A stretch of DNA of 32,808 bases from Marinobacter sp. (GTDB taxonomy: Bacteria > Pseudomonadota > Gammaproteobacteria > Pseudomonadales > Oleiphilaceae). A model generated the notes under the pieces. That model was not told where the DNA came from, searched no databases, and was given only the letters and a program-made list of their open reading frames with translations. The position numbers were made by a program, and so were the translations under genes. Location of the stretch: NCBI GenBank assembly GCA_018066865.1, contig JAGPVT010000165.1, positions 1 through 32,808 of the forward strand, in the 5' to 3' direction. Below are positions 20,049-30,459 of the stretch, piece by piece (position 1 is the stretch's first letter; each line of letters begins with the position of its first letter).

Positions 20049-20858
20049 ATGAGTAAAAAACGTCGCGAGATTCCCGTATTCGATCACCCGATCATAGAAA
20101 CTCACTGTCACCTGGACTACCTCAAGGAACGGCCCCTGGAGGAAACCCTGAAGCAGACACAGAAGGTGAACATTGAGCGGGTGATTACCATCGCGGTCGC
20201 ACCAGGCAATCTGGCGCAGGTACGTGAACTCAGCACAAAGGCTCCGTGGCTCTACGGAACCCAAGGCATCCACCCGCACGAGGCGGAGAGTTACAGCGAC
20301 ACCGTTGAAGCTGAAATTCGCGCTCACGCCCGGGCCGACAAGATCGTTGCGGTGGGCGAGATCGGGCTGGATTATTACTACGACAACGCAGATCGCGCCA
20401 TTCAACGCGAGGTATTCCGGCGCCAGCTTCAGATTGCCTGTGACAGCGACCGCCCGGTGGTTATCCATAGCCGTGATGCAGACGAGGATACCATCGCCAT
20501 ACTCAAAGAGTTCGAGCAGTCCCTCAATCGCCGTGGCGTGATTCACAGCTTCACGTCGGGCCCGGGGCTTGCAAGATATGCACTGGATCAGGGCTGGAAT
20601 CTCGGCTTTAATGGCATTACCACCTTCAACAAGGCGGAAAACGTGCGGGATATTGTTCGTATGGCTCCCATCAGCCAGATTCTTCTGGAGACAGACGCCC
20701 CGTTTCTCACCCCCGTGCCCTATCGTGGCCGCGAAAATGCGCCTTTCTACTTGCCATTTGTAGCGGAAAAGATTGCCGAGGTGAAAGAACTGCCACTGGA
20801 GGACGTGATTGTCCAAACCTACAACAACAGCCTGAAAACGTTTTTCCCCATGCAATGA
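20049..20858 (+). CDS. TatD-family metal-dependent hydrolase (putative deoxyribonuclease)
   Basis: TatD proteins are TIM-barrel amidohydrolase-fold nucleases, several of which act as 3'-5' exonucleases on DNA or RNA. The 269-residue protein carries the metal ligands in order: HxH at His19/His21 (ETHCHLD), Glu104 in GEIGLDYYY, His140 in VVIHSRDAD, His166 in IHSFTSG and Asp216 in LLETDAPFLTPVP. This is the full active-site set. The N-terminus is about ten residues longer than in typical TatD. The ATG at 20049 has no close ribosome site (GGAG lies about 16 bases upstream). The stop overlaps the next start as ATGA, so it is coupled to the HD-GYP gene, an unusual partner. Which TatD subgroup (TatD, YcfH, YjjV) is unresolved. 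Confidence 0.9.
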   Translation: MSKKRREIPVFDHPIIETHCHLDYLKERPLEETLKQTQKVNIERVITIAVAPGNLAQVRELSTKAPWLYGTQGIHPHEAESYSDTVEAEIRAHARADKIVAVGEIGLDYYYDNADRAIQREVFRRQLQIACDSDRPVVIHSRDADEDTIAILKEFEQSLNRRGVIHSFTSGPGLARYALDQGWNLGFNGITTFNKAENVRDIVRMAPISQILLETDAPFLTPVPYRGRENAPFYLPFVAEKIAEVKELPLEDVIVQTYNNSLKTFFPMQ

Positions 20859-22063
20859 TCAAACGCATCCCCATATCCGCCCTCAAGGTCGGCATGTATA
20901 TCACCGACCTCAACAACGACTGGATTCCCCATAATACCCAGCGCAGGTGCGGTATTATCAAACGCGAGGAAACCCTCGAAAAAATCCGCAAGATGGGCGT
21001 GCAGTTTGTCTATATTGATGCCCGAAAGGGTACGGACACTCAGGATTCAGAAACTGCCGCAGAAGTGGAAGCACGTAACGAAGAGGCTCTGCAAAAAGCC
21101 GGGGAGCAAAAGCCCGGCGTTGTACCAAGGGTTTCTCTTTGTGAGGAAATGACAACAGCGCTGGGGATTCATTCAGAGGCACAGGAACTGGTTGGCAGCT
21201 TTATGAACAGTGCCAAAATTGGCGCCTCCATCGATATAGCGCCAATCCACAAGCTTGCCGACGAACTGCAGAGCTCGGTAGCGCGCAATGCCAATGCGCT
21301 GGGCTGCCTGGGCCGTATTCGCGAAAAAGACAACTACCTGCTCGAGCACTCGGTAAACCTGAGTGTTCTGATGTCCCTGTTCGGGCAGTATCTCGAGCTG
21401 CCTGCCGACGTTATGCACCAAACCGTTGTGGGCGCCCTGCTTCACGACCTTGGCAAAATACTGACCCCCGATGAGGTGTTGCACAAGCCCGGGCGCCTGT
21501 CATCAGAAGAGTTTGAGGTCATGAAACTTCATGCCCGGCATTCCCGCGATATTCTGGCTGCAACCGAAGGCATCGGCGAACTCACGGTGATCACCGCAGC
21601 CCAGCACCACGAGCGCATGGATGGCACCGGCTACCCGGAGGGTCTCAAAGGCGAGGAGATTTCTGTTTACGGTCGCATGGTCGCCATTACCGATGTGTAC
21701 GATGCGATTACCGCCGACCGTGTTTATCACCGGGGCATGACGCCCACCCAGGGCCTCAAGAAGCTTCTGGAATGGAGCGGGAGTCACCTGGACCCGGCAC
21801 TGGTGAAGCAGTTCATCCGTTGTATCGGCTTGTACCCGGTGGGATCACTAATTCTGCTCGACAGCGGGCGACTCGGTGTTGTGATTGAAATCAACGAGGC
21901 GGATCAACGATTGCCGGTTGTACGAGTGATGTACCACACGAAATTCCGGATGCCGATTGCCATAACAACCATCGATCTTTCACAAGCGGGTAATCAGGAT
22001 CGCATTTTGCGTGCCGTCGACCCCGATGAGTATAAAATTGACGTACGAAAGTTCCTTTCCTGA
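20855..22063 (+). CDS. DUF3391 + HD-GYP cyclic-di-GMP phosphodiesterase
   Basis: A predicted hydrolase of the second messenger c-di-GMP (to pGpG or GMP). The 402-residue cytoplasmic protein has an N-terminal DUF3391 domain (1-~60, starting IPISALKVGMYITDL), a linker rich in Glu/Ala, and an HD-GYP domain (about 150-330). Metal-binding residues are present: LLHDLGK (His197, Asp198, Lys201), His226 in LHARHS, HHERMDGTGYP (251-261, including the GYP triplet) and Asp280 in AITDVYDAITADR. All key residues are intact, so activity is expected. A C-terminal segment (YPVGSLILLDSGRLGVV) is typical of this DUF3391 group. It starts inside the tatD stop (ATGA) with no ribosome site of its own. No receiver domain is present, so its input is unclear. 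Confidence 0.92.
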   Translation: MIKRIPISALKVGMYITDLNNDWIPHNTQRRCGIIKREETLEKIRKMGVQFVYIDARKGTDTQDSETAAEVEARNEEALQKAGEQKPGVVPRVSLCEEMTTALGIHSEAQELVGSFMNSAKIGASIDIAPIHKLADELQSSVARNANALGCLGRIREKDNYLLEHSVNLSVLMSLFGQYLELPADVMHQTVVGALLHDLGKILTPDEVLHKPGRLSSEEFEVMKLHARHSRDILAATEGIGELTVITAAQHHERMDGTGYPEGLKGEEISVYGRMVAITDVYDAITADRVYHRGMTPTQGLKKLLEWSGSHLDPALVKQFIRCIGLYPVGSLILLDSGRLGVVIEINEADQRLPVVRVMYHTKFRMPIAITTIDLSQAGNQDRILRAVDPDEYKIDVRKFLS

Positions 22064-22069
22064 GCCTGT

Positions 22070-22981
22070 TCAGCCGAGAGACAGAAAAACACCCATAAAA
22101 ACCGGCGACAGAAAAGACAGCAGAAAGCCTGAAGCAATTGCGACCGGCACACAGCTCAGCCCTCCGTTACTGCGGATCACAGGAAGAGTGAAGTCCATGG
22201 AAGTGGCTCCGCCATAACCGATAGCCATGGCAGGTCGGCTGCCAATAACCAGCGGAATGATGGCCAGCGCAATAATCTCGCGCAGCACATCGTTGAGAAA
22301 TGCCACACCGCCCCAAGCAGGACCAAGGGCTTCCCCAATCACAATTCCGGAGAGCGAGTACCAGCCAAATCCGGAGGCCAGGGCGAGTACGTCGTGCCAA
22401 GGCAGGCCCAGCACAGGAATCAGCAGCACACCCGCCAGCAAAGAGCTGAGCACAAGCACCACCGCAATGCCTAACCCCTGAGTGTTCATCAGCAGTTTGC
22501 GCAGGGAAAGCCCTGCATTACGCAATTGCAGGCCAATCAGAAACAACAGCAGCATCAGAGACCAGGTGGCCAGCTGCTCCGCTTGTGGCAGTTTTGGTAG
22601 CAGAAAATAGCCCGATAACACGCCTGCCAGCACTGCAATCAGAGGCTTAAGCGCGGCCATGAACAGACGCACGTAACCAGCGCCTGCCGAGTCAGTATCC
22701 CTGGGTTCAGGACTCATTGGCTTCCACCGGTGAAGCAACCACAGCCCGGTCATATTGGCCACGAACAGAACCACGACAAGAGCAGTCATCTGGCCCGCCA
22801 TGGTTCCAAGCTGGCTCGTCAACCCCTCCATCTGACCCAGGCCAAAGCCCAGCAGCGCCAGAATGAAATACACCAATGCTTCAACGGAATAGTGAATAGC
22901 CGTCATCAGCCGGCGATTTTTCAGCGACAGGGCAAAGCCCAGAAACAACGGCGCAAGAATCAGCAAGGCACCTGTCAGCAT
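22070..22981 (-). CDS. lysO: L-lysine exporter, LysO family
   Basis: An inner-membrane protein that exports L-lysine (and analogues such as thialysine) in E. coli, formerly YbjE. The 303-residue protein is strongly hydrophobic, with about eight to nine membrane segments, and matches E. coli LysO (299 aa) through LLLFLIGLQLRNAGLSL, ASGFGWYSLSGIVIGEALGP, FLNDVLREIIALAIIP and GGATSMDFTLPVI. The segment linking the two halves (residues about 85-110) is less conserved. The ATG at 22981 overlaps the TGA of the upstream DUF2288 gene by one base; a TTG one codon upstream is also possible. The gene ends six bases from the convergent HD-GYP gene. Substrate inferred from family; no lysine-responsive leader is visible because it is internal to an operon. 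Confidence 0.88.
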   Translation of the reverse strand: MLTGALLILAPLFLGFALSLKNRRLMTAIHYSVEALVYFILALLGFGLGQMEGLTSQLGTMAGQMTALVVVLFVANMTGLWLLHRWKPMSPEPRDTDSAGAGYVRLFMAALKPLIAVLAGVLSGYFLLPKLPQAEQLATWSLMLLLFLIGLQLRNAGLSLRKLLMNTQGLGIAVVLVLSSLLAGVLLIPVLGLPWHDVLALASGFGWYSLSGIVIGEALGPAWGGVAFLNDVLREIIALAIIPLVIGSRPAMAIGYGGATSMDFTLPVIRSNGGLSCVPVAIASGFLLSFLSPVFMGVFLSLG

Positions 22982-23301
22982 CAATGCACCGACGCGTCAG
23001 AACGATCCTGAACCAGCACCCAGGGCGCTATAACCACGGCCCAGAGTTCTGTATTGCGATCGTACCAGGCGCGGGCCAGCTCGGGTGAAACGTCCCCTAC
23101 GTCGCCAGCAGTGAGCCATTGCTCAAAGAGCGCACGGTTATCTGCCACCAAGTCGCAGGCCACATCCAGCAGGTCCAGGTTGGAGCCCACACGCACCACC
23201 TGCCCTCGGGCATAATAGGTTTGAAGCTCGTGCCAGCGTATACGGGAGGTTTCCAGGTTGAGCCTGGCTTTGGTTTCATCGTTATTGCGGGAGGACGACA
23301 T
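22981..23301 (-). CDS. DUF2288 family protein, unknown function
   Basis: A 106-residue small acidic cytoplasmic protein recognised by ETSRIRWHELQTYYARGQVV followed by LDLLDVACDLVADN and a C-terminal ELWAVVIAPWVLVQ, the DUF2288 pattern. It has no signal peptide, membrane segment or catalytic motif that I recognise. AAAGG lies five bases before ATG 23301. It sits 41 bp after the stand-alone receiver gene on the same strand and overlaps lysO by one base, so it may be the fourth gene of a run that begins with the GGDEF protein. Function unknown. Confidence 0.8.
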   Translation of the reverse strand: MSSSRNNDETKARLNLETSRIRWHELQTYYARGQVVRVGSNLDLLDVACDLVADNRALFEQWLTAGDVGDVSPELARAWYDRNTELWAVVIAPWVLVQDRSDASVH

Positions 23302-23342
23302 GACAGCCTTTTCAGATAATGACAGTAAAAACCGGCAAGAGC

Positions 23343-23744
23343 TTAACCGATTGCACAGGCCTCATTCCAGATGTCCTTTATCTGATCAGCCAGTGTGAGC
23401 GGATCAAACGGCTTGGGAATAACACCCGCGGCACCCTGTGCAAGATAACTTTGAACTTCGTCACTCTGCACCTTCGCGGTCATGAACACCGCCGGTGTCG
23501 CGGCATAGTCCGGCAAAAGCCGGATAGCTTTCAGGGTCGCCGGGCCATCCATGCCCGGCATCATGACATCCAGAACAATAAGCTGGGGCTCGCACTGGTC
23601 AATCTGTTCCAGCGCATGCTGCCCCGACTCACAGGCTGTCAGTTCAAACCCGCCAATCGCTTCCAGAGCAAGCTCCGCTACTGTGCGGATATCCGGCTCA
23701 TCCTCAATCATCAGAATCCGCTTAAGGCTTTTGTCTGGCATCAT
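23343..23744 (-). CDS. Stand-alone response regulator receiver protein
   Basis: A 133-residue CheY-like receiver with no output domain. Acidic residues in LMIEDEPD (Glu14, Asp15), phosphoacceptor Asp59 in LIVLDVMMPGMDG, Thr89 in VFMTAKV and Lys111 in VIPKPFDPLTL are all present, so it should be phosphorylated. The ATG at 23744 starts MMPDKSLKRIL; the codon next to it (23741) and an ATG five codons earlier (23759) are alternatives. The start region overlaps the end of the receiver-HDOD gene by about 20 bp, which indicates coupled expression. It may act as a shuttle or sink in a phosphorelay with the neighbouring kinases. Confidence 0.85.
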   Translation of the reverse strand: MMPDKSLKRILMIEDEPDIRTVAELALEAIGGFELTACESGQHALEQIDQCEPQLIVLDVMMPGMDGPATLKAIRLLPDYAATPAVFMTAKVQSDEVQSYLAQGAAGVIPKPFDPLTLADQIKDIWNEACAIG

Positions 23745-24888
23745 CCTGGCCCCGTTCATCGTGTTCAATCCCCAGTCTTCGCAATAATGTGCGGCACTCC
23801 GGGCTTTCGGCATGCTCCGCCGCCATCAACGCAGCCGCTCGCATAACCAGTTTTGATCGGCTGACGTTGCTTCTGCTCAAAACGTACACGGCACCAATTA
23901 ATTCTCTGAGATCCAGCGGCAAACGCCATTGCACCTTGATGCGATTGCCCAGCTTTTCGGCCCAGTAAGTAATGGCAGAGTCGATCTGCTCAAATTCCGG
24001 CGGCTCACCACTCTCGTCATACTGGTTCTGCAACACTTTCAGGGCCGCCAACTCACCGGCCCTACTCAGCAGCCCTGCGGTGTAGTATAACGTGGGGGTT
24101 TCTCCCACCTTTTTTGCCAGCGTGTGCGCTGCCTCAGCAACTCTCAGCGCCTGTTCCTGCTCAAGACGGGCGCGCTCAGCCAGGCGCGGGCCGGTCAGCT
24201 TACCGGCAATATCCAGCGATAATGCAAGCGCCTGGTTCAAGGCCATGGCAACGCCAATCGTGCTGATCGCCTCTCTGGGAGTTTTTACCGACGTGCCGGA
24301 ACGCCGGAATGACGCGCTGTTGGCCACATCCAGCATCTTTGCACTCAGGGCAGGTTCCTGCTTCCATTGTTCTGCAAGTGTGGCGGCGTCCAGTTCGTCG
24401 AGCCTGTCCATGAGGGCCAGTACTTCAGCGGTGTCAATCTGACCTGGCAACTGAATCGCAGAGTTACAGGCGGCCTCCATTTTCTCATTCAGAGTGCTCC
24501 CCCCTTTTTCTTTTCCTTTTACAATCAAAGCCGGCATCAGCTCTGTCAGCCGTTTGTGCACTGCGTCTACCTGGAAAGGCTTGCTTATATAACCGCTAAT
24601 CCCCAGGTGAGCTGCTGACAGGATGGATTCACGGTCAGCGCGACCGCTGATTATGAGAACAGGAATGTCAGCACTGGTTCGTCTGACCTCACGAATCAAA
24701 TCCAGCCCGGAGCCGTCCGGCAAATTCCAGTCGGTAATGACCAAGTCTGCCGGCTGTTGCTGCCAGCTATAGAGCGCAGGCTTCAGCATGTCAAAAAGAC
24801 CGATTTTGGCGCCCGGGCAGGCGCTCGCCACGATGGTCCCAAGCAAATCCCCGATCATCTCATCATCGTCGAGAATCAATACATGCAT
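23722..24888 (-). CDS. Response regulator with HDOD output domain
   Basis: A 388-residue protein. The N-terminal receiver (1-~118) has LILDDDEM, phosphoacceptor Asp53 in LVITDWNLPDGSG, Ser81 in LIISGRAD and Lys103 in YISKPFQVD. The HDOD domain follows (about 150-330), beginning near LPGQIDTAEVLALMDRLDEL and continuing with LSAKMLDVANSASFRRSG and PREAISTIGVAMALNQALAL. HDOD is related to HD phosphohydrolases but lacks their metal-binding residues; HDOD proteins act in signalling, often through protein contacts. I chose ATG 24888 (MHVLILDDDE) with GAGAG seven bases upstream; an open frame extends further into the preceding gene without receiver homology. It lies 28 bp after the GGDEF gene and overlaps the next receiver gene. 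Confidence 0.88.
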   Translation of the reverse strand: MHVLILDDDEMIGDLLGTIVASACPGAKIGLFDMLKPALYSWQQQPADLVITDWNLPDGSGLDLIREVRRTSADIPVLIISGRADRESILSAAHLGISGYISKPFQVDAVHKRLTELMPALIVKGKEKGGSTLNEKMEAACNSAIQLPGQIDTAEVLALMDRLDELDAATLAEQWKQEPALSAKMLDVANSASFRRSGTSVKTPREAISTIGVAMALNQALALSLDIAGKLTGPRLAERARLEQEQALRVAEAAHTLAKKVGETPTLYYTAGLLSRAGELAALKVLQNQYDESGEPPEFEQIDSAITYWAEKLGNRIKVQWRLPLDLRELIGAVYVLSRSNVSRSKLVMRAAALMAAEHAESPECRTLLRRLGIEHDERGQDDARQKP

Positions 24889-24916
24889 CTCGGCACTCTC
24901 GAATCGCAATAAACTC

Positions 24917-26575
24917 TCACGGTTGATCTCCTGAAGCCACAGTAACGCCGTTGCGCCCCGCGCGTTTGCGCCGGTATAGCGCCCGGTCTGCAGCATCAAT
25001 AGCCTGGTCACCGGACCCATAAGCAGTTAATACGGCAACACCGGCGCTAAAGGTCACTGAAAACTCCTCGTTGCCTCCGTTAAACACCAGGCGGGCAAAA
25101 TCCCGACTCAACGCTTCAAGTACCTCAACGGCTTTCTCCAGCGAGCACTCGGGTAACACGATAACGAATTCCTCACCACCATAGCGGCCGATAATGTCCG
25201 TGTTGCGCAACCGATGGCGCAGCAGGTTGGACAAGGCCTTAATGACCATGTCGCCTGTCCCGTGGCCGTAGGAGTCGTTGACCCGTTTGAAGTGATCCAG
25301 ATCCAGCATGGCGACAACAGAATCATGCCCGGTACGGGTACAACGCGCGTATTCCCGGTTCAGCTCTGCTTTGGCGAGAGCGTGCTTCAGCAAGCCGGTA
25401 AGGCTGTCGAGCGATACCAGCTTGCCAAGCTGTCTGGCGCGGTAGCATCGAATCCTCGCCGTGCGCAGCAAAAACTCATCGGATACCGGCTTGGTCACAA
25501 AATCATCACCGCCACGAGCAAGTACATCCAATTGCAGATCGCGATCTTCTTCAGACGAAAAGAAGATGATGGGCAGGCTGAGCCACTCGGCCTGAAACCG
25601 CAACATCCGGGCCAGAACCGGGCCATCGTAATGTCCCATCTGCACATCCATGAGCAGAATGTCCGGCCGGAACTCGGACAATTCCGACAGCAGGCGCGAT
25701 GGGTCATCAAGTGCCCGCACCTGCAAACCGCCACTGGTAAGAACCACCCGGTAGTGTTCCAGCAGCTCTCTATCATCGTCTACAATCATCACCCGACCGG
25801 TGAGCGTTGCCAGCCCCTCAGCCAGGAGTTGCTCTATACGGTCTGCAAGGGCGGGAATATCCTGAGGCTCATCAATACAGGCATCGACGCCCAGGCAGGC
25901 CAACTGGTAACGGGTCGTAAAGTCGTGGGCCTCGCTGAAGCAAATCACCGGAATGCTGCGAAGCTTGGACAACCAGTGAACCTCATCATCCCGGAGCAGC
26001 CTATCCCTGATCATGACGAGATCAATCTCGTCCATACTATCTGGCCACTGCTCGCCACTACTTAGACTGTGCACCTGGTAGTCATACAGTGCCAAGCCCT
26101 GCGATATCAGCTCCTTACGCTGTTGATCAGGCTCCAGAATCAACAAGACAGACTGATTTCCGGCCTCTACTGGTCTCGGCTTGTGCCACCCGGTTGATAC
26201 CGGTTCGGCCACACCCAACAGGCTGCCAAGACCAGCAATGTCGTTTTCATAGCCGTTCGCCAGCAACTGCTTTAATTGAAGCCGGATACGCTCGCTGTCG
26301 ACCCCTTCCGTTATCTGATCTGCCAGAGGCTTTATAACAATCTCGAGTTTTCTGGCCTGCTCGCCAAGCTGGGTAAAACCCAAAGTGCCAGCCGAGCCCG
26401 CCAGCCTGTGTAAAAGCTGATAGACAGAGATCAGCTCTTCGGTGGCTTCCGGATACCTGGATGCGTTAAAAATACTGGCGACCAAGCCCTCAATTTCACG
26501 TATCGTTTTATCGCGAAAGCGATTACGAAGCGTCTCCAGTTTTCTGCGCACCTCGGAAGAAGGGCTTTGAGGCAT
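24917..26575 (-). CDS. Hpt - pseudo-receiver - receiver - GGDEF diguanylate cyclase
   Basis: A 552-residue signalling protein predicted to make c-di-GMP. Order: Hpt domain (about 15-120) with phosphoryl His56 in LLHRLAGSAGTLGF; a degenerate receiver (about 141-255), where the usual Lys motif is DEPQD and the phospho-site region reads VMIRDRL; an intact receiver (about 261-380) with VDDD, Asp310 in LLMDVQMGHYDG and Lys362 in VTKPV; and a GGDEF domain (about 388-545) with active-site GGEEF (466-470) and an inhibitory I-site RNTD (457-460) five residues upstream. No membrane segment. ATG 26575 is preceded by AAGAG. It is the first gene of the minus-strand run and is divergent from the kinase genes. 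Phosphate could move kinase to receiver, receiver to Hpt, and Hpt to the small receivers. Confidence 0.92.
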   Translation of the reverse strand: MPQSPSSEVRRKLETLRNRFRDKTIREIEGLVASIFNASRYPEATEELISVYQLLHRLAGSAGTLGFTQLGEQARKLEIVIKPLADQITEGVDSERIRLQLKQLLANGYENDIAGLGSLLGVAEPVSTGWHKPRPVEAGNQSVLLILEPDQQRKELISQGLALYDYQVHSLSSGEQWPDSMDEIDLVMIRDRLLRDDEVHWLSKLRSIPVICFSEAHDFTTRYQLACLGVDACIDEPQDIPALADRIEQLLAEGLATLTGRVMIVDDDRELLEHYRVVLTSGGLQVRALDDPSRLLSELSEFRPDILLMDVQMGHYDGPVLARMLRFQAEWLSLPIIFFSSEEDRDLQLDVLARGGDDFVTKPVSDEFLLRTARIRCYRARQLGKLVSLDSLTGLLKHALAKAELNREYARCTRTGHDSVVAMLDLDHFKRVNDSYGHGTGDMVIKALSNLLRHRLRNTDIIGRYGGEEFVIVLPECSLEKAVEVLEALSRDFARLVFNGGNEEFSVTFSAGVAVLTAYGSGDQAIDAADRALYRRKRAGRNGVTVASGDQP

Positions 26576-26666
26576 AAATGCTCTTACTGATTATCGCGCG
26601 CAAACGCTGTGAATTCTGATTCAATTACTGTTCAATCAAAGCAAGTTTTTCGGCAAATAGCCAGAC

Positions 26667-26671
26667 AGGAG
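26667..26671 (+). promoter_or_regulatory. Ribosome binding site supporting a TTG start for the first kinase
   Basis: AGGAG at 26667-26671 is six bases before TTG 26678-26680, in frame with the kinase. The alternative upstream GTG at 26609 has no purine-rich site. This site decides the start chosen here. Confidence 0.6.
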
Positions 26672-26677
26672 CACGTT

Positions 26678-28465
26678 TTGAGTTATCTATCTCTCGGCAC
26701 CCGCCTTGCTGTGATCGTACTGTTTGGCAGTCTGGCAACCTTGGGCTCAATTATCTACGCCGCATACGATGCGTTACTGGAGGACTTTGCAACGAATCTG
26801 TCCCTGCAACAGGCGAACGAAGCAGCCTACATCTCCAGCCTGGTCAGCCAGGATCTTGAGCTTCGTACCAGTGTGATGGCTCAGTTTACCGCCATGCTAA
26901 GCCACGATGGCCAACTGTTGCCTCAGGCACAACTTACAGATCTCCTGAAAAAACAGCAAAAACTCAAAAAGCTGTTTCCCCACAGCCTGACGGTTCTGAC
27001 TGCAAACGCTACACTGATTGCTGAAAACATTTTTGTTCCTGGCAGAGTCGGCACCTATTATGCCGACCGACCCCACTGGAAAAAGGCTATTGAAACTCGT
27101 CGCCCCGTAATCAGTCGCCCCCTTATAGGCCGAACAACGGGCATACCCTTGATGGTTTTTATTGCACCAATCGAGGGTAATAACGGAGAGCTCCTGGGTT
27201 TCCTCAGCGGCACCCTGAAAATGGATCAGTCGCTTCTGATACCGGAACACGTGCGAAAAAATGCCAGTAACAATGCTGTTTTCCTGGTGGTAGACACAGG
27301 TAACTTCCTGTTTGTAGAAGGCTCTGGTGAAGGCAACGCTATCGAGAGTCTTCCCGATCCCGGGGATAATTTACTGATTGATGCCGCCTTATCCGGTATC
27401 CGTTTTGGTGAGGTTGAGGCCGCCTCAGGTGAAACGCTGATCTATGCAACAAGCCATCTGCAACGCCTTGGGTGGTTGTTTATTCGTGCCGTTCCCAAGT
27501 CACTTGCTACGGCTCCCGCACAAGAGGCCTTCAGCCGATTTTTTCTGATCAGTATAGGATTGACCTTCGGCATATTACTGCTGACGTACATGGCACTCCG
27601 CTCGACGACCGCGTCCCTCACACAGATGACCCGTCGTATACGCTCCATGATCCGGAAGCCGGAATCATCGAGCCGCCTCAAAGAACAGGGTGCACCAGAG
27701 GTACGCGATTTGGCACAGGCATTCAATCAATTGATGGATGAACGCGATGCCAACAACCAACTCAAAGACAATTTTGTGTCCAATGTCAGCCATGAGTTGC
27801 GAACACCACTGACCTCAATAAATGGCGCTTTGCGGCTGCTTCAATCCGGCACAACAGGCGAACTTCCAGAACGAGCCAGGGAGATGACAGCATTAGCTTT
27901 GCGCAACGGCGAACGCCTGCAATTGCTCATCAGCGACATGCTCGATTTCAACAAACTCGCCAGCGGTAAAATGCGCCTTAGTTTTCAGCCTGAAAATCTG
28001 CAGCAACTGCTCGCCGAAACCGTCAGCGGCAACGAAACAATGGCGCGGGAGTTCGGCGTCAGGCTCGCCGCTCCGGACACACCCGCGATAACTTTGCAGA
28101 CCGACGGTCACAGGTTGCGGCAAATCCTCGATAATTTCGTCAGCAATGCCATCAAGTTTTCACCGAAGCAGGGCCTGGTGACACTTCATGCTGAACAAAC
28201 CGATCAAAGCCGGCTGCGAATCACCGTCAGCGACCAGGGCAAAGGCGTACCTGAAGGATTTCAGAGCCAGCTTTTCGAACGTTTTTCCCAGGCAGAAACA
28301 GGTACGACGCGCGCAACCAATGGCACTGGCCTTGGCCTTGCGATCAGCCGCCAGCTTGCAGGTCTGCTAAACGGGAATGTCGGCTTCTACAATAACAGTG
28401 GAGCACATTTTTGGGTTGAGCTGCCTATGGACAGCATCGCTTTGCCGGAGGCCCCATCATCATGA
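26678..28465 (+). CDS. Membrane sensor histidine kinase with extracytoplasmic sensor
   Basis: A 595-residue inner-membrane kinase. Using the TTG start: membrane segment 1 (about 8-28), a periplasmic dCache-like sensor (about 30-285) containing PGRVGTYYADRPHWKKA and RPVISRPLIGRTTGIPLMVF, membrane segment 2 (about 287-307), a HAMP-like linker (about 310-355), HisKA with phospho-His372 in FVSNVSHELRTPLTSI, and HATPase_c with the N box (ILDNFVSNAIKFS), VSDQGKGVP and GTGLGLAISRQL. No receiver or Hpt is attached. The PHWKKA and GRTTGIP segments are common in Cache sensors of small organic ligands. A GTG at 26609 would add 23 hydrophilic residues ahead of the first membrane helix. The stop overlaps the next kinase start (ATGA). 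Ligand unknown. Confidence 0.88.
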   Translation: MSYLSLGTRLAVIVLFGSLATLGSIIYAAYDALLEDFATNLSLQQANEAAYISSLVSQDLELRTSVMAQFTAMLSHDGQLLPQAQLTDLLKKQQKLKKLFPHSLTVLTANATLIAENIFVPGRVGTYYADRPHWKKAIETRRPVISRPLIGRTTGIPLMVFIAPIEGNNGELLGFLSGTLKMDQSLLIPEHVRKNASNNAVFLVVDTGNFLFVEGSGEGNAIESLPDPGDNLLIDAALSGIRFGEVEAASGETLIYATSHLQRLGWLFIRAVPKSLATAPAQEAFSRFFLISIGLTFGILLLTYMALRSTTASLTQMTRRIRSMIRKPESSSRLKEQGAPEVRDLAQAFNQLMDERDANNQLKDNFVSNVSHELRTPLTSINGALRLLQSGTTGELPERAREMTALALRNGERLQLLISDMLDFNKLASGKMRLSFQPENLQQLLAETVSGNETMAREFGVRLAAPDTPAITLQTDGHRLRQILDNFVSNAIKFSPKQGLVTLHAEQTDQSRLRITVSDQGKGVPEGFQSQLFERFSQAETGTTRATNGTGLGLAISRQLAGLLNGNVGFYNNSGAHFWVELPMDSIALPEAPSS

Positions 28466-30459
28466 GTGCACCTGAATTTCCATCCAATGAAAGGGCAAGA
28501 CAAACGGCGCTGGACCAACTGCGAATTCTCGACACCCACCCTGAAGTGCGCTTTGACCGGCTGACCCGAATGGCCGCCCGGCTACTGGACGTACCAATAG
28601 CCCTTATTTCATTGATAGACCGCGACCGGCAGTGGTTCAAATCCTGTGTCGGGCTTGATGTCAGCGAAACCCCTAGAAGCATTTCTTTCTGCGGCCACGC
28701 CATTTTCGGCAGGCAGCCGCTGGTGGTTGAGGATGCGCGCGAAGATGAACGCTTCCGCGACAACCCGCTAGTAACCAGCGACCCGAACATCCGCTTCTAT
28801 GCCGGTACGCCTCTTCACAGTGCGGATGGTCATGCCCTCGGCACTCTGTGCGTCATTGACCGGAAACCGCGAAAACTAAACGAAGAAGATCTCCAGTGCC
28901 TACGCGATATCGCAGATTGTGTCGAGGAGCAGATCAGCGCCCGCGAACTGGCGATTCACTACCGGGAACAGGAGCTGGAACATAAGAATGAATCCCTGGT
29001 AATGCTAAAACAGCTTGCTGATCTGGCACCCGGCAGCCTTTATCAGTTCCGCCGTTATCCGGATGGGCGTATGAGCTTTCCTTTCAGCAGTAAGGGGATT
29101 GAGCGCACGCTTGGTGTCACCCAAAGGCAGGCCCGGGATGATGCGGCAGCTCTGTTCAAGATGATCCATCCAGATGACCTGCACGCCGTAAAAGCTTCGA
29201 TTGATGAGTCTGCAAGTCAGCTGAGCACTTGGTCGATCCAGTTCCGGTTACGCGGGCAAGAGCGCCGCTGGCGCTGGATTGAAGGCCGCTCAACGCCACA
29301 GAAACTTTCTGACGGCAGCATTATCTGGCATGGCTACCTTGAGGATATTGATGACAAAAAAAAGGCACTGCTAGGTTTGCAGGAAAGCGAACTGCAGCTT
29401 CGTCGCCTGTTTGAACTTGCGCCCACTGGCATCCTTCTTTCGGACTACCGGACGTCGGCAATCATCGATGTGAACGCAGCCATGCTCAAATCGACCGGTT
29501 ACAGCAAGGATGAGTTCCTGAAGCTGGACTACCGAAAACTGCTTGATCCCGACCACGTATCACGGCGCACTGAGGCTTTGGATCAGTTAAGGCAGACGGG
29601 GTATTTCGGCCCCGTCGAGCAAAACGTGATCGATCGTGAGGGAGTCATGTTCCCCGTTATTATTCACAGTATGCTGATACGTGACCCCTCCGGGCGCAAA
29701 TTACTTTGGGTTCTGATGGAGGATATTTCTGAACGCAAAAAGATCGAACGCATGAAAAACCAGTTCGTTTCTACCGTCAGCCATGAGCTACGCACACCGC
29801 TTACTTCCATTACGGGCGCTATTGGTCTGCTGGCCGCCGGCGCCGCCGGAGCACTTCCCTCGAAAGCTCAGGATATGATGACAATCGCTAAACGCAATGC
29901 CCAGCAATTGGCTACGTTGATCAATGACCTGCTGGATATGGAAAAGCTGGTAGAAGGCAAACTGGACATCAATCTGGAGCGACAGCCTTTACAGCCCTTG
30001 CTTGAACAGGCGGTAGCTACAAACCAGTCTTACGGCGCGCAGCGCAAAATCATCATTAATTCGGCGCCCGACATCCTCGAAACCGAGGTATTTGTAGACG
30101 GCCAGCGGCTATTACAGGCGCTGAACAACCTGATATCCAATGCTATAAAGTTCTCGCCAGACAACGGTCGTGTCCACTTGTCCACCCGCCATGAGTTATC
30201 AGAAGGGAAACCAACCGTCATTATCGGCGTGGAAGACAGCGGACAGGGTGTTCCGGCCGCCTTTCGGGATCAGATCTTTCAGCGTTTTGCCCAGGCAGAC
30301 AGTTCTGACACCCGCAGCCAGGGTGGAACCGGTCTTGGGCTCGCCATAACGCGAGAATTGACTACGGCGATGGGGGGCGAAGTGGGTTTCGAGTCTTTGC
30401 CCGGCCAGGGCGCCACCTTCTGGATACGTCTGCCTGTGTCAGGCGACGATAAGCCATAG
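28462..30459 (+). CDS. Cytoplasmic GAF-PAS-PAS sensor histidine kinase
   Basis: A 665-residue soluble kinase. Domains: GAF (about 15-165), with the familiar FDRLTRMAARLLDVPIALIS and GTLCVIDRKPR; a first PAS (about 185-300) ending RWIEGRSTP and YLEDIDDKKKA; a second PAS (about 313-425) ending LMEDISERKK; HisKA with phospho-His441 in FVSTVSHELRTPLTSI; HATPase_c with ALNNLISNAIKFS, EDSGQGVP and GTGLGLAITREL. The kinase core is strikingly like that of the preceding kinase (FVSxVSHELRTPLTSIxGA, then LPxxAxxM, RNxxxL and LIxDxLD), so the two are paralogs with different sensors. ATG 28462 overlaps the previous stop (ATGA), with GGAGG about ten bases upstream. No receiver is attached. A terminator follows at 30461-30489. 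Confidence 0.93.
   Translation: MSAPEFPSNERARQTALDQLRILDTHPEVRFDRLTRMAARLLDVPIALISLIDRDRQWFKSCVGLDVSETPRSISFCGHAIFGRQPLVVEDAREDERFRDNPLVTSDPNIRFYAGTPLHSADGHALGTLCVIDRKPRKLNEEDLQCLRDIADCVEEQISARELAIHYREQELEHKNESLVMLKQLADLAPGSLYQFRRYPDGRMSFPFSSKGIERTLGVTQRQARDDAAALFKMIHPDDLHAVKASIDESASQLSTWSIQFRLRGQERRWRWIEGRSTPQKLSDGSIIWHGYLEDIDDKKKALLGLQESELQLRRLFELAPTGILLSDYRTSAIIDVNAAMLKSTGYSKDEFLKLDYRKLLDPDHVSRRTEALDQLRQTGYFGPVEQNVIDREGVMFPVIIHSMLIRDPSGRKLLWVLMEDISERKKIERMKNQFVSTVSHELRTPLTSITGAIGLLAAGAAGALPSKAQDMMTIAKRNAQQLATLINDLLDMEKLVEGKLDINLERQPLQPLLEQAVATNQSYGAQRKIIINSAPDILETEVFVDGQRLLQALNNLISNAIKFSPDNGRVHLSTRHELSEGKPTVIIGVEDSGQGVPAAFRDQIFQRFAQADSSDTRSQGGTGLGLAITRELTTAMGGEVGFESLPGQGATFWIRLPVSGDDKP

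Follow-up and report, generated by a model that had tools for sequence, protein, structure and literature searches.

The 32,808 nucleotides analysed here (the window; positions 1-32,808 of contig JAGPVT010000165.1, Marinobacter sp., GCA_018066865.1) include a locus (22070..30459) in which two histidine kinases, HK1 and HK2, diverge from three regulators: a diguanylate cyclase with a fused histidine phosphotransfer (Hpt) domain, a REC-HDOD protein, and a small protein consisting of a receiver alone (REC-only). The module is real, conserved and coherent. A sequence-only reading had set two kinases opposite three regulators; a relay in which a receiver hub feeds an Hpt-fused, PleD-like cyclase describes it better than a set of three outputs does. 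It is on balance probable that phosphate would pass from a kinase His to the Asp of REC-only, the carrier, from there to the Hpt His, then to the Asp of the second cyclase receiver (REC2), and so reach the cyclase. In known relays, Hpt domains take phosphate from a receiver Asp. REC-only is taken as the carrier because the Hpt domain needs such a donor and a receiver domain is missing from all 181 kinases of dCache or GAF type in the Marinobacter loci that were fetched. A wider proposal, plausible if tentative, is of an undescribed class of c-di-GMP input spread over at least four phyla: a REC-only protein without an output switch would make up a universal socket together with a PleD-like cyclase that has a fused Hpt, so that any kinase fitting the receiver can be added or dropped and the output is fixed.

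In outline, HK1 and HK2 would phosphorylate the REC-only Asp, from which the phosphate would be transferred to the Hpt His at the front of the cyclase and then to the REC2 Asp of the same protein. Pairing of REC2 with the degenerate first receiver (pseudoREC), as in PleD, would switch on synthesis of cyclic di-GMP (c-di-GMP), which may brake its own production through the I-site. REC-HDOD would take phosphate as a side branch and modulate the output. REC-only would correspond to the receiver of a hybrid kinase, split off as a protein of its own and serving as the common entry point for all kinases of the locus. In the Marinobacter alignments, the four phospho-residues of a His-Asp-His-Asp relay lie in the right domains.

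Distribution and gene order in Marinobacter

The survey covered 124 Marinobacter genomes; these are related, and the counts are not independent. The cyclase is present in 89 (a set cut by hand near E 1e-71, because weaker matches resemble a REC-GGDEF paralogue), REC-only in 92, HK1 in 81, REC-HDOD in 91, HD-GYP in 87 and lysO in 121. REC-only accompanies the cyclase in all 89 genomes that have it and occurs in 3 of the 35 that lack it, both genes being absent from 32. The phi coefficients with the cyclase are 0.94 for REC-only, 0.82 for HK1, 0.68 for REC-HDOD and 0.49 for HD-GYP. A single co-conserved locus across much of the genus, as the sequence-only reading had expected, is therefore found (cyclase in 89/124), and its five genes are not equal partners: REC-only and the Hpt-cyclase form an inseparable pair, to which REC-HDOD and HD-GYP are more loosely attached. 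Nor do the three regulators look like parallel outputs, since REC-only is co-inherited with the cyclase and is carrier-like.

Gene order was compared in 85 fetched Marinobacter loci, chosen by cyclase match, so that counts on them are conditional on the cyclase. The divergent order of two kinases, cyclase, REC-HDOD and REC-only is kept in 67 (57+6+3+1; three of these lack acnA within the stretch and one lacks lysO), which indicates that the arrangement is not due to chance. The neighbourhood survey proposed earlier thus places kinases and regulators together in Marinobacter, not at separate loci. REC-only is found in 84 of the 85, the sole exception (L186) ending at a contig edge. Among the other Marinobacter loci, six are without REC-HDOD, HK1 is seen without HK2 in four, and in four a kinase lies on the regulator strand directly before REC-only.

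On a quickly built AcnA tree with 85 rows, the 11 sampled relay-less loci require 6 changes, at least 5 of them on starred branches. This scatter implies that presence of the relay has changed repeatedly, by loss or gain. One of these loci (L207) is relay-minus for the lysO site only; its genome, G337, carries a different type of relay at L209. Three Marinobacter genomes carry this other type elsewhere (L191, L209, L210), REC and Hpt-cyclase being clustered there with a GAF kinase and a hybrid kinase. In genome G345 (L208) the relay is decaying: HK1 and HK2 are broken or cut, cyclase and REC-HDOD are gone and REC-only is shortened.

The Hpt-fused cyclase

The GGEEF active site and the RxxD I-site are both intact, and the c-di-GMP output proposed from sequence stands as a prediction. 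His56 of the Hpt domain, Asp310 of REC2 and the GGEE and RxxD residues are invariant in an alignment of 55 homologues. Among the 87 Marinobacter rows, the Hpt His is kept in 82/82 non-gap rows, the REC2 Asp in 86/86 (with Phe as the switch residue, also 86/86), and GGEEF and RxxD in 84-85 of 85. The first receiver gives no Pfam match and has lost its phosphorylation Asp, the position being Arg in 42 rows, Ser in 12 and Asp in only 3. The AlphaFold model has a mean predicted local distance difference test score (pLDDT) of 86.6 and a predicted template modelling score (pTM) of 0.67; residues 11-120 form a helical bundle with pLDDT >=90, and both receivers have receiver-like folds, pseudoREC included, with its alternation of strands and helices. 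One genome (G248, L104) has the cyclase gene split across two open frames. The cyclase matches listed include one from M. adhaerens with 73% identity.

The REC-only protein

REC-only keeps the residues of a working receiver and has lost the aromatic switch, with Val107 at the place of the Tyr or Phe found in output-driving receivers. Across the Marinobacter rows, D58, T88 and V107 are each present in 86/86 and K110 in 85/85 non-gap rows. Tyr, Phe, Trp or His occurs at the switch position in 0/117 REC-only orthologues and in 379/384 other receivers (4 of the 379 being His), a comparison based on the 501 of 582 receiver domains that have both Asp and Lys. The statistic is partly circular, and to that extent weakens our case, because the orthologues were chosen with a model built from Marinobacter receivers that all have Val; the model score spans the whole domain and not the switch position alone. 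Distant copies carry Val, Leu or Ala, and in the loci of the window's own genome the aromatic residue is kept in 39/39 other receivers.

Asp, Thr and Lys kept with the beta5 aromatic lost is the pattern of an intermediary receiver (Rec_inter), although it is not a general test for one. Variability at the switch has been offered, for CckA-type receivers, as consistent with lost allosteric output in an intermediary receiver (PubMed Central (PMC), PMC9981736; this and the other published accounts are cited from excerpts). The FATGUY class of single-domain receivers (MrrA, SdrG) was considered and ruled out, REC-only having F-[M/I]-T-A-[K/R] in 86/86 rows.

The kinases

The HK1 and HK2 genes overlap by ATGA, and their cores are, as had been read from the sequence, near-parallel paralogues that are mutually closest in the genome: when the window's own genome is searched with HK2, the HK1 core scores 194.6 bits (44%), compared with 127.8 bits for the kinase core in second place. 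The phospho-His is kept in 77/77 rows for HK1 and 59/59 for HK2. That the two differ in their sensors also holds, with GAF-PAS-PAS in HK2 and a weak dCache_1 match in HK1 (31 bits, under the 45-bit cut-off), and they share their receiver-contact residues. At the positions that we take to be the receiver contacts, T, S, G and A/S are found in 181, 175, 176 and 180 of the 181 kinases, and HK1 and HK2 both have T, S, G, A. This set occurs in 0/26 other kinases examined from the same genome, where 29 of 38 HisKA places could be aligned and 26 of these have the His and are not HK1 or HK2. The HK1 model has a pTM of 0.46, and its Foldseek matches, mostly to the kinase core, are uninformative on the ligand of the sensor.

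Kinase and receiver counts near the cyclase refer to 79 of the 85 loci, in which 183 of 184 kinase open reading frames (ORFs) have no receiver. Within 7.5 kb of the cyclase there is one kinase ORF in 8 loci, two in 38, three in 32 and four in 1, counts that split genes would inflate. Two kinases, the number first reported, is that of the window's lineage.

Related loci elsewhere

Away from the Marinobacter lysO site, 34 distinct Hpt-cyclase loci were counted, 31 outside the genus and 3 in Marinobacter genomes. They come from a set of 36, in which L023 is a duplicate and L035, despite having a REC orthologue and a hybrid kinase, escaped the model. In 25/34 (23/31 outside the genus) an orthologue of REC-only is encoded on the same strand as the cyclase and no more than 4.5 kb away, in 14 cases within 120 bp; a kinase is present at 28/34. 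Loci with the receiver include records labelled Stutzerimonas, Cellvibrio, Desulfobotulus, an Acidobacteria metagenome-assembled genome (MAG) and Phormidium, the last three being one locus each and the Phormidium receiver having a lower score and lying after the cyclase. In Stutzerimonas and in these three single loci the receiver-cyclase pair is accompanied by kinases. Six Stutzerimonas loci show the order kinase-REC-kinase-REC-Hpt-cyclase, and in the one checked by Pfam (L029) both kinases are without a receiver.

In two loci labelled Oceanisphaera and Oceanimonas (L017, L020) the Marinobacter arrangement recurs from kinase through cyclase and REC-HDOD to REC; they represent either transfer or misassigned sequence. 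Another, labelled as a Robiginitomaculum MAG (L016), has acnA (68%), kinases and cyclase in Marinobacter order, possibly through a binning error. A plasmid search gave 4 records, with distant matches.

Evidence against the relay, and alternative wirings

Several observations weigh against the proposed relay. The Hpt motif is HRLAG rather than HxxKG. Two of the 14 kinase domains in Marinobacter loci that have neither sensor type, and were excluded from the 181 for that reason, bear a receiver, and the common contact residues may reflect shared kinase descent. REC-only occurs without the Hpt-cyclase in three genomes, G255 (together with REC-HDOD and a hybrid kinase) and G300 and G345, which have shortened copies. 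At 9 of the 34 other loci no orthologue is nearby, 4 of the 9 having another receiver; one of the loci scored negative (L191) does have REC, the script having centred on another cyclase there. Outside the genus, some of the kinases are of the hybrid type and could pass phosphate straight to Hpt, and a hybrid kinase follows the cyclase in 5 of the 6 Stutzerimonas loci. The argument from conservation is also weak: in 69/69 genomes REC-only exceeds the full-length cyclase, REC-HDOD and HK1 in conservation, but as single domains REC2 (median 60.3%) and GGDEF (61.2%) equal it (59.7%). Likewise, the predicted contact face of REC-only, at positions presumed to correspond to those of Spo0F, is near-invariant (mean entropy 0.23 vs 1.08 elsewhere), but the faces of REC2 (0.37 vs 1.20) and REC-HDOD (0.61 vs 1.42) are conserved too.

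An unlikely alternative is direct wiring, in which the kinases phosphorylate REC2 (and REC-HDOD), REC-only is a phosphate sink and Hpt serves reverse transfer. In REC2 and REC-HDOD the active site is indeed complete, the switch residue is present and the contact face is conserved; a sink would have no need of an output switch either; and in LovR and LovK a sink and a phosphotransfer kinase do form a pair (PMC5964349). Such wiring would nevertheless require a sink to be co-inherited with the Hpt-cyclase in 89/89 genomes, and the Stutzerimonas order, with a receiver after each of two receiver-less kinases, fits delivery of phosphate better than draining.

The arrangement first proposed, with two kinases feeding three parallel regulators, REC-HDOD as a full output and HD-GYP as the opposing enzyme, appears improbable. 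It agrees with the adjacency of the genes in the window and in 67/85 loci, and with a second REC-HDOD family whose members adjoin cyclase genes. REC-HDOD, however, falls below threshold in 7/89 cyclase-positive genomes (one of which, G307, has pieces of it) and is kept in 9 without the cyclase, and REC-only has no output switch. HD-GYP is indeed commoner with the cyclase (75/89 genomes) than without it (12/35), as it is in relay loci (72/85) compared with relay-less ones (3/11; L204, L207, L208) among the fetched stretches. HD-GYP may still be an opposing enzyme; a dedicated role is unsupported, the association being loose (phi 0.49) and HD-GYP absent from 14/89 cyclase-positive genomes. Least probable of all is that REC-only works in the manner of CheY or DivK, as an output that acts by binding some other protein, independently of Hpt, for although such proteins can be terminal regulators (CpdR, for example; PMC9981736), the aromatic switch is lost in 117/117 copies and the protein is co-inherited or linked with an Hpt protein, outside the genus as well.

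REC-HDOD and the window

REC-HDOD keeps its phosphorylation site in 75/76 non-gap Marinobacter rows and an aromatic switch (Tyr100 in the window; Tyr or Phe in 77/77). It is ruled out as a core member of the relay by its separable inheritance and its presence at only 2 of the 34 other loci (the Oceanisphaera and Oceanimonas records). In the nine cyclase-negative genomes that keep it, the gene lies near acnA and lysO, which suggests that the circuit took in a gene that was there before it. The second family (L200-L202; genomes G019, G261, G296) adjoins a REC-GGDEF or GGDEF gene, so that REC-HDOD and cyclases are paired at another Marinobacter locus too; G019 was scored positive for REC-HDOD through its copy elsewhere, its lysO locus being without one. 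HDOD proteins affect motility or biofilm in pseudomonads, as with PSPTO_4229 (PMC11813219) and SadB (PMC8262913). By analogy with HnoD of Shewanella, we would guess that REC-HDOD has a modulating role.

A Pfam scan of eight window proteins, with the ORF coordinates, bears out the domains, gene order and strands read earlier (Table 1), and in none of the eight does Pfam recognise a DNA-binding domain, again as had been reported. DUF2288 and lysO were rejected as relay parts and are judged mere neighbours, because lysO is found in 121/124 genomes irrespective of the cyclase (89). The start of either the cyclase or HK1 may sit further inside its gene than called, and in 77 relatives the cyclase and HK1 matches lie 34 to 802 bp apart, with a median of 104. 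Promoter and terminator scans gave 3 and 12 hits, against 4.6 and 9.0 expected, and are uninformative.

Table 1. Genes and key residues of the locus and its neighbours (window positions; residue positions approximate)
Feature	Position	Strand	Remarks
HD-GYP gene	20855..22063	+	Pfam HD_5/HD and DUF3391; overlaps the end of tatD
lysO	22070..22984	-	Pfam Lys_export; downstream neighbour
DUF2288 gene	22981..23301	-	Pfam DUF2288; downstream neighbour
REC-only	23343..23741	-	Pfam Response_reg alone; 132 residues from the start used
REC-only Val107	23421-23423		replaces the aromatic switch
REC-only Asp58	23568-23570		
REC-HDOD	23722..24888	-	Pfam Response_reg and HDOD
REC-HDOD Asp53	24730-24732		
Hpt-pseudoREC-REC-GGDEF diguanylate cyclase	24917..26575	-	Pfam Hpt, Response_reg and GGDEF; 552 residues
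Cyclase REC2 Asp310	25646-25648		acceptor
Cyclase Hpt His56	26408-26410		
Gap between cyclase and HK1	26576..26608		33 bp between divergent starts as called
HK1	26609..28465	+	Pfam dCache_1 and HAMP (both below cut-off), HisKA, HATPase_c; no REC
HK1 His395	27791-27793		
HK2	28462..30459	+	Pfam GAF, PAS, PAS, HisKA, HATPase_c; no REC
HK2 His441	29782-29784		

Comparison with known systems

The output of Spo0F is sporulation rather than c-di-GMP, and to our knowledge no Hpt domain is fused to an enzyme in its relay. Caulobacter PleD is the closest solved structure to the cyclase by sequence, over the REC-GGDEF part only, and the best Foldseek match to its model (E 4.5e-26), with a global TM of only about 0.3. 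Both proteins have a receiver and a pseudo-receiver before an intact GGDEF domain; the order is REC-pseudoREC-GGDEF in PleD, whereas here pseudoREC precedes REC, with Hpt as an additional first domain. Partner sensor kinases are described as phosphorylating PleD, and its phosphorylation alters receiver-pseudoreceiver contacts and leads to dimerization (PMC12632262). REC-only resembles Spo0F as a stand-alone intermediary receiver (PMC9981736).

For the CdgK-CdgS system of Anabaena, too, a His-Asp-His-Asp relay with a REC-GGDEF cyclase as its last member has been proposed, but in that system a single hybrid kinase contains both REC and Hpt (PMC9927289), whereas here REC is separate, Hpt is on the cyclase and none of the 181 kinases is of the hybrid form. 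With REC and Hpt placed in this way, several kinases could share them. The MrrA hub of Caulobacter also has a single-domain receiver, served by at least six kinases and feeding a protein that acts as a histidine phosphotransferase (PMC5964349); its output is PhyR and the general stress response rather than a cyclase encoded by linked genes, and MrrA has the FATGUY motif (PMC9981736) that REC-only is without. In the HnoK-HnoB-HnoD system of Shewanella, one kinase controls a c-di-GMP enzyme and HnoD fine-tunes activity, but in the excerpt the output is a phosphodiesterase, transfer is direct, and neither an Hpt nor a REC-only protein is mentioned (PMC8846402). Searches of the open-licence PMC literature showed no account of this locus, or of an Hpt-REC-REC-GGDEF cyclase with a REC-only partner, which is weak evidence as subscription papers and preprints lie outside that scope; the relay is not described in the excerpts of PMC8547461, PMC11481889, PMC10333796 and PMC4618731.

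The assignment of receivers as carriers or outputs has been left to future work (PMC9981736), and a switchless REC-only protein beside an Hpt-enzyme could be a sequence mark that helps to separate the two. The relay proposed here is a testable design for several signals converging on one diguanylate cyclase without hybrid kinases. In Marinobacter it would be a widespread c-di-GMP input (89/124 genomes), lost or gained several times, through which multiple different signals may set one lifestyle switch. If the socket proposal is also true, signal input would evolve freely, as the one to four kinases of the Marinobacter loci may illustrate, while the output stays fixed.

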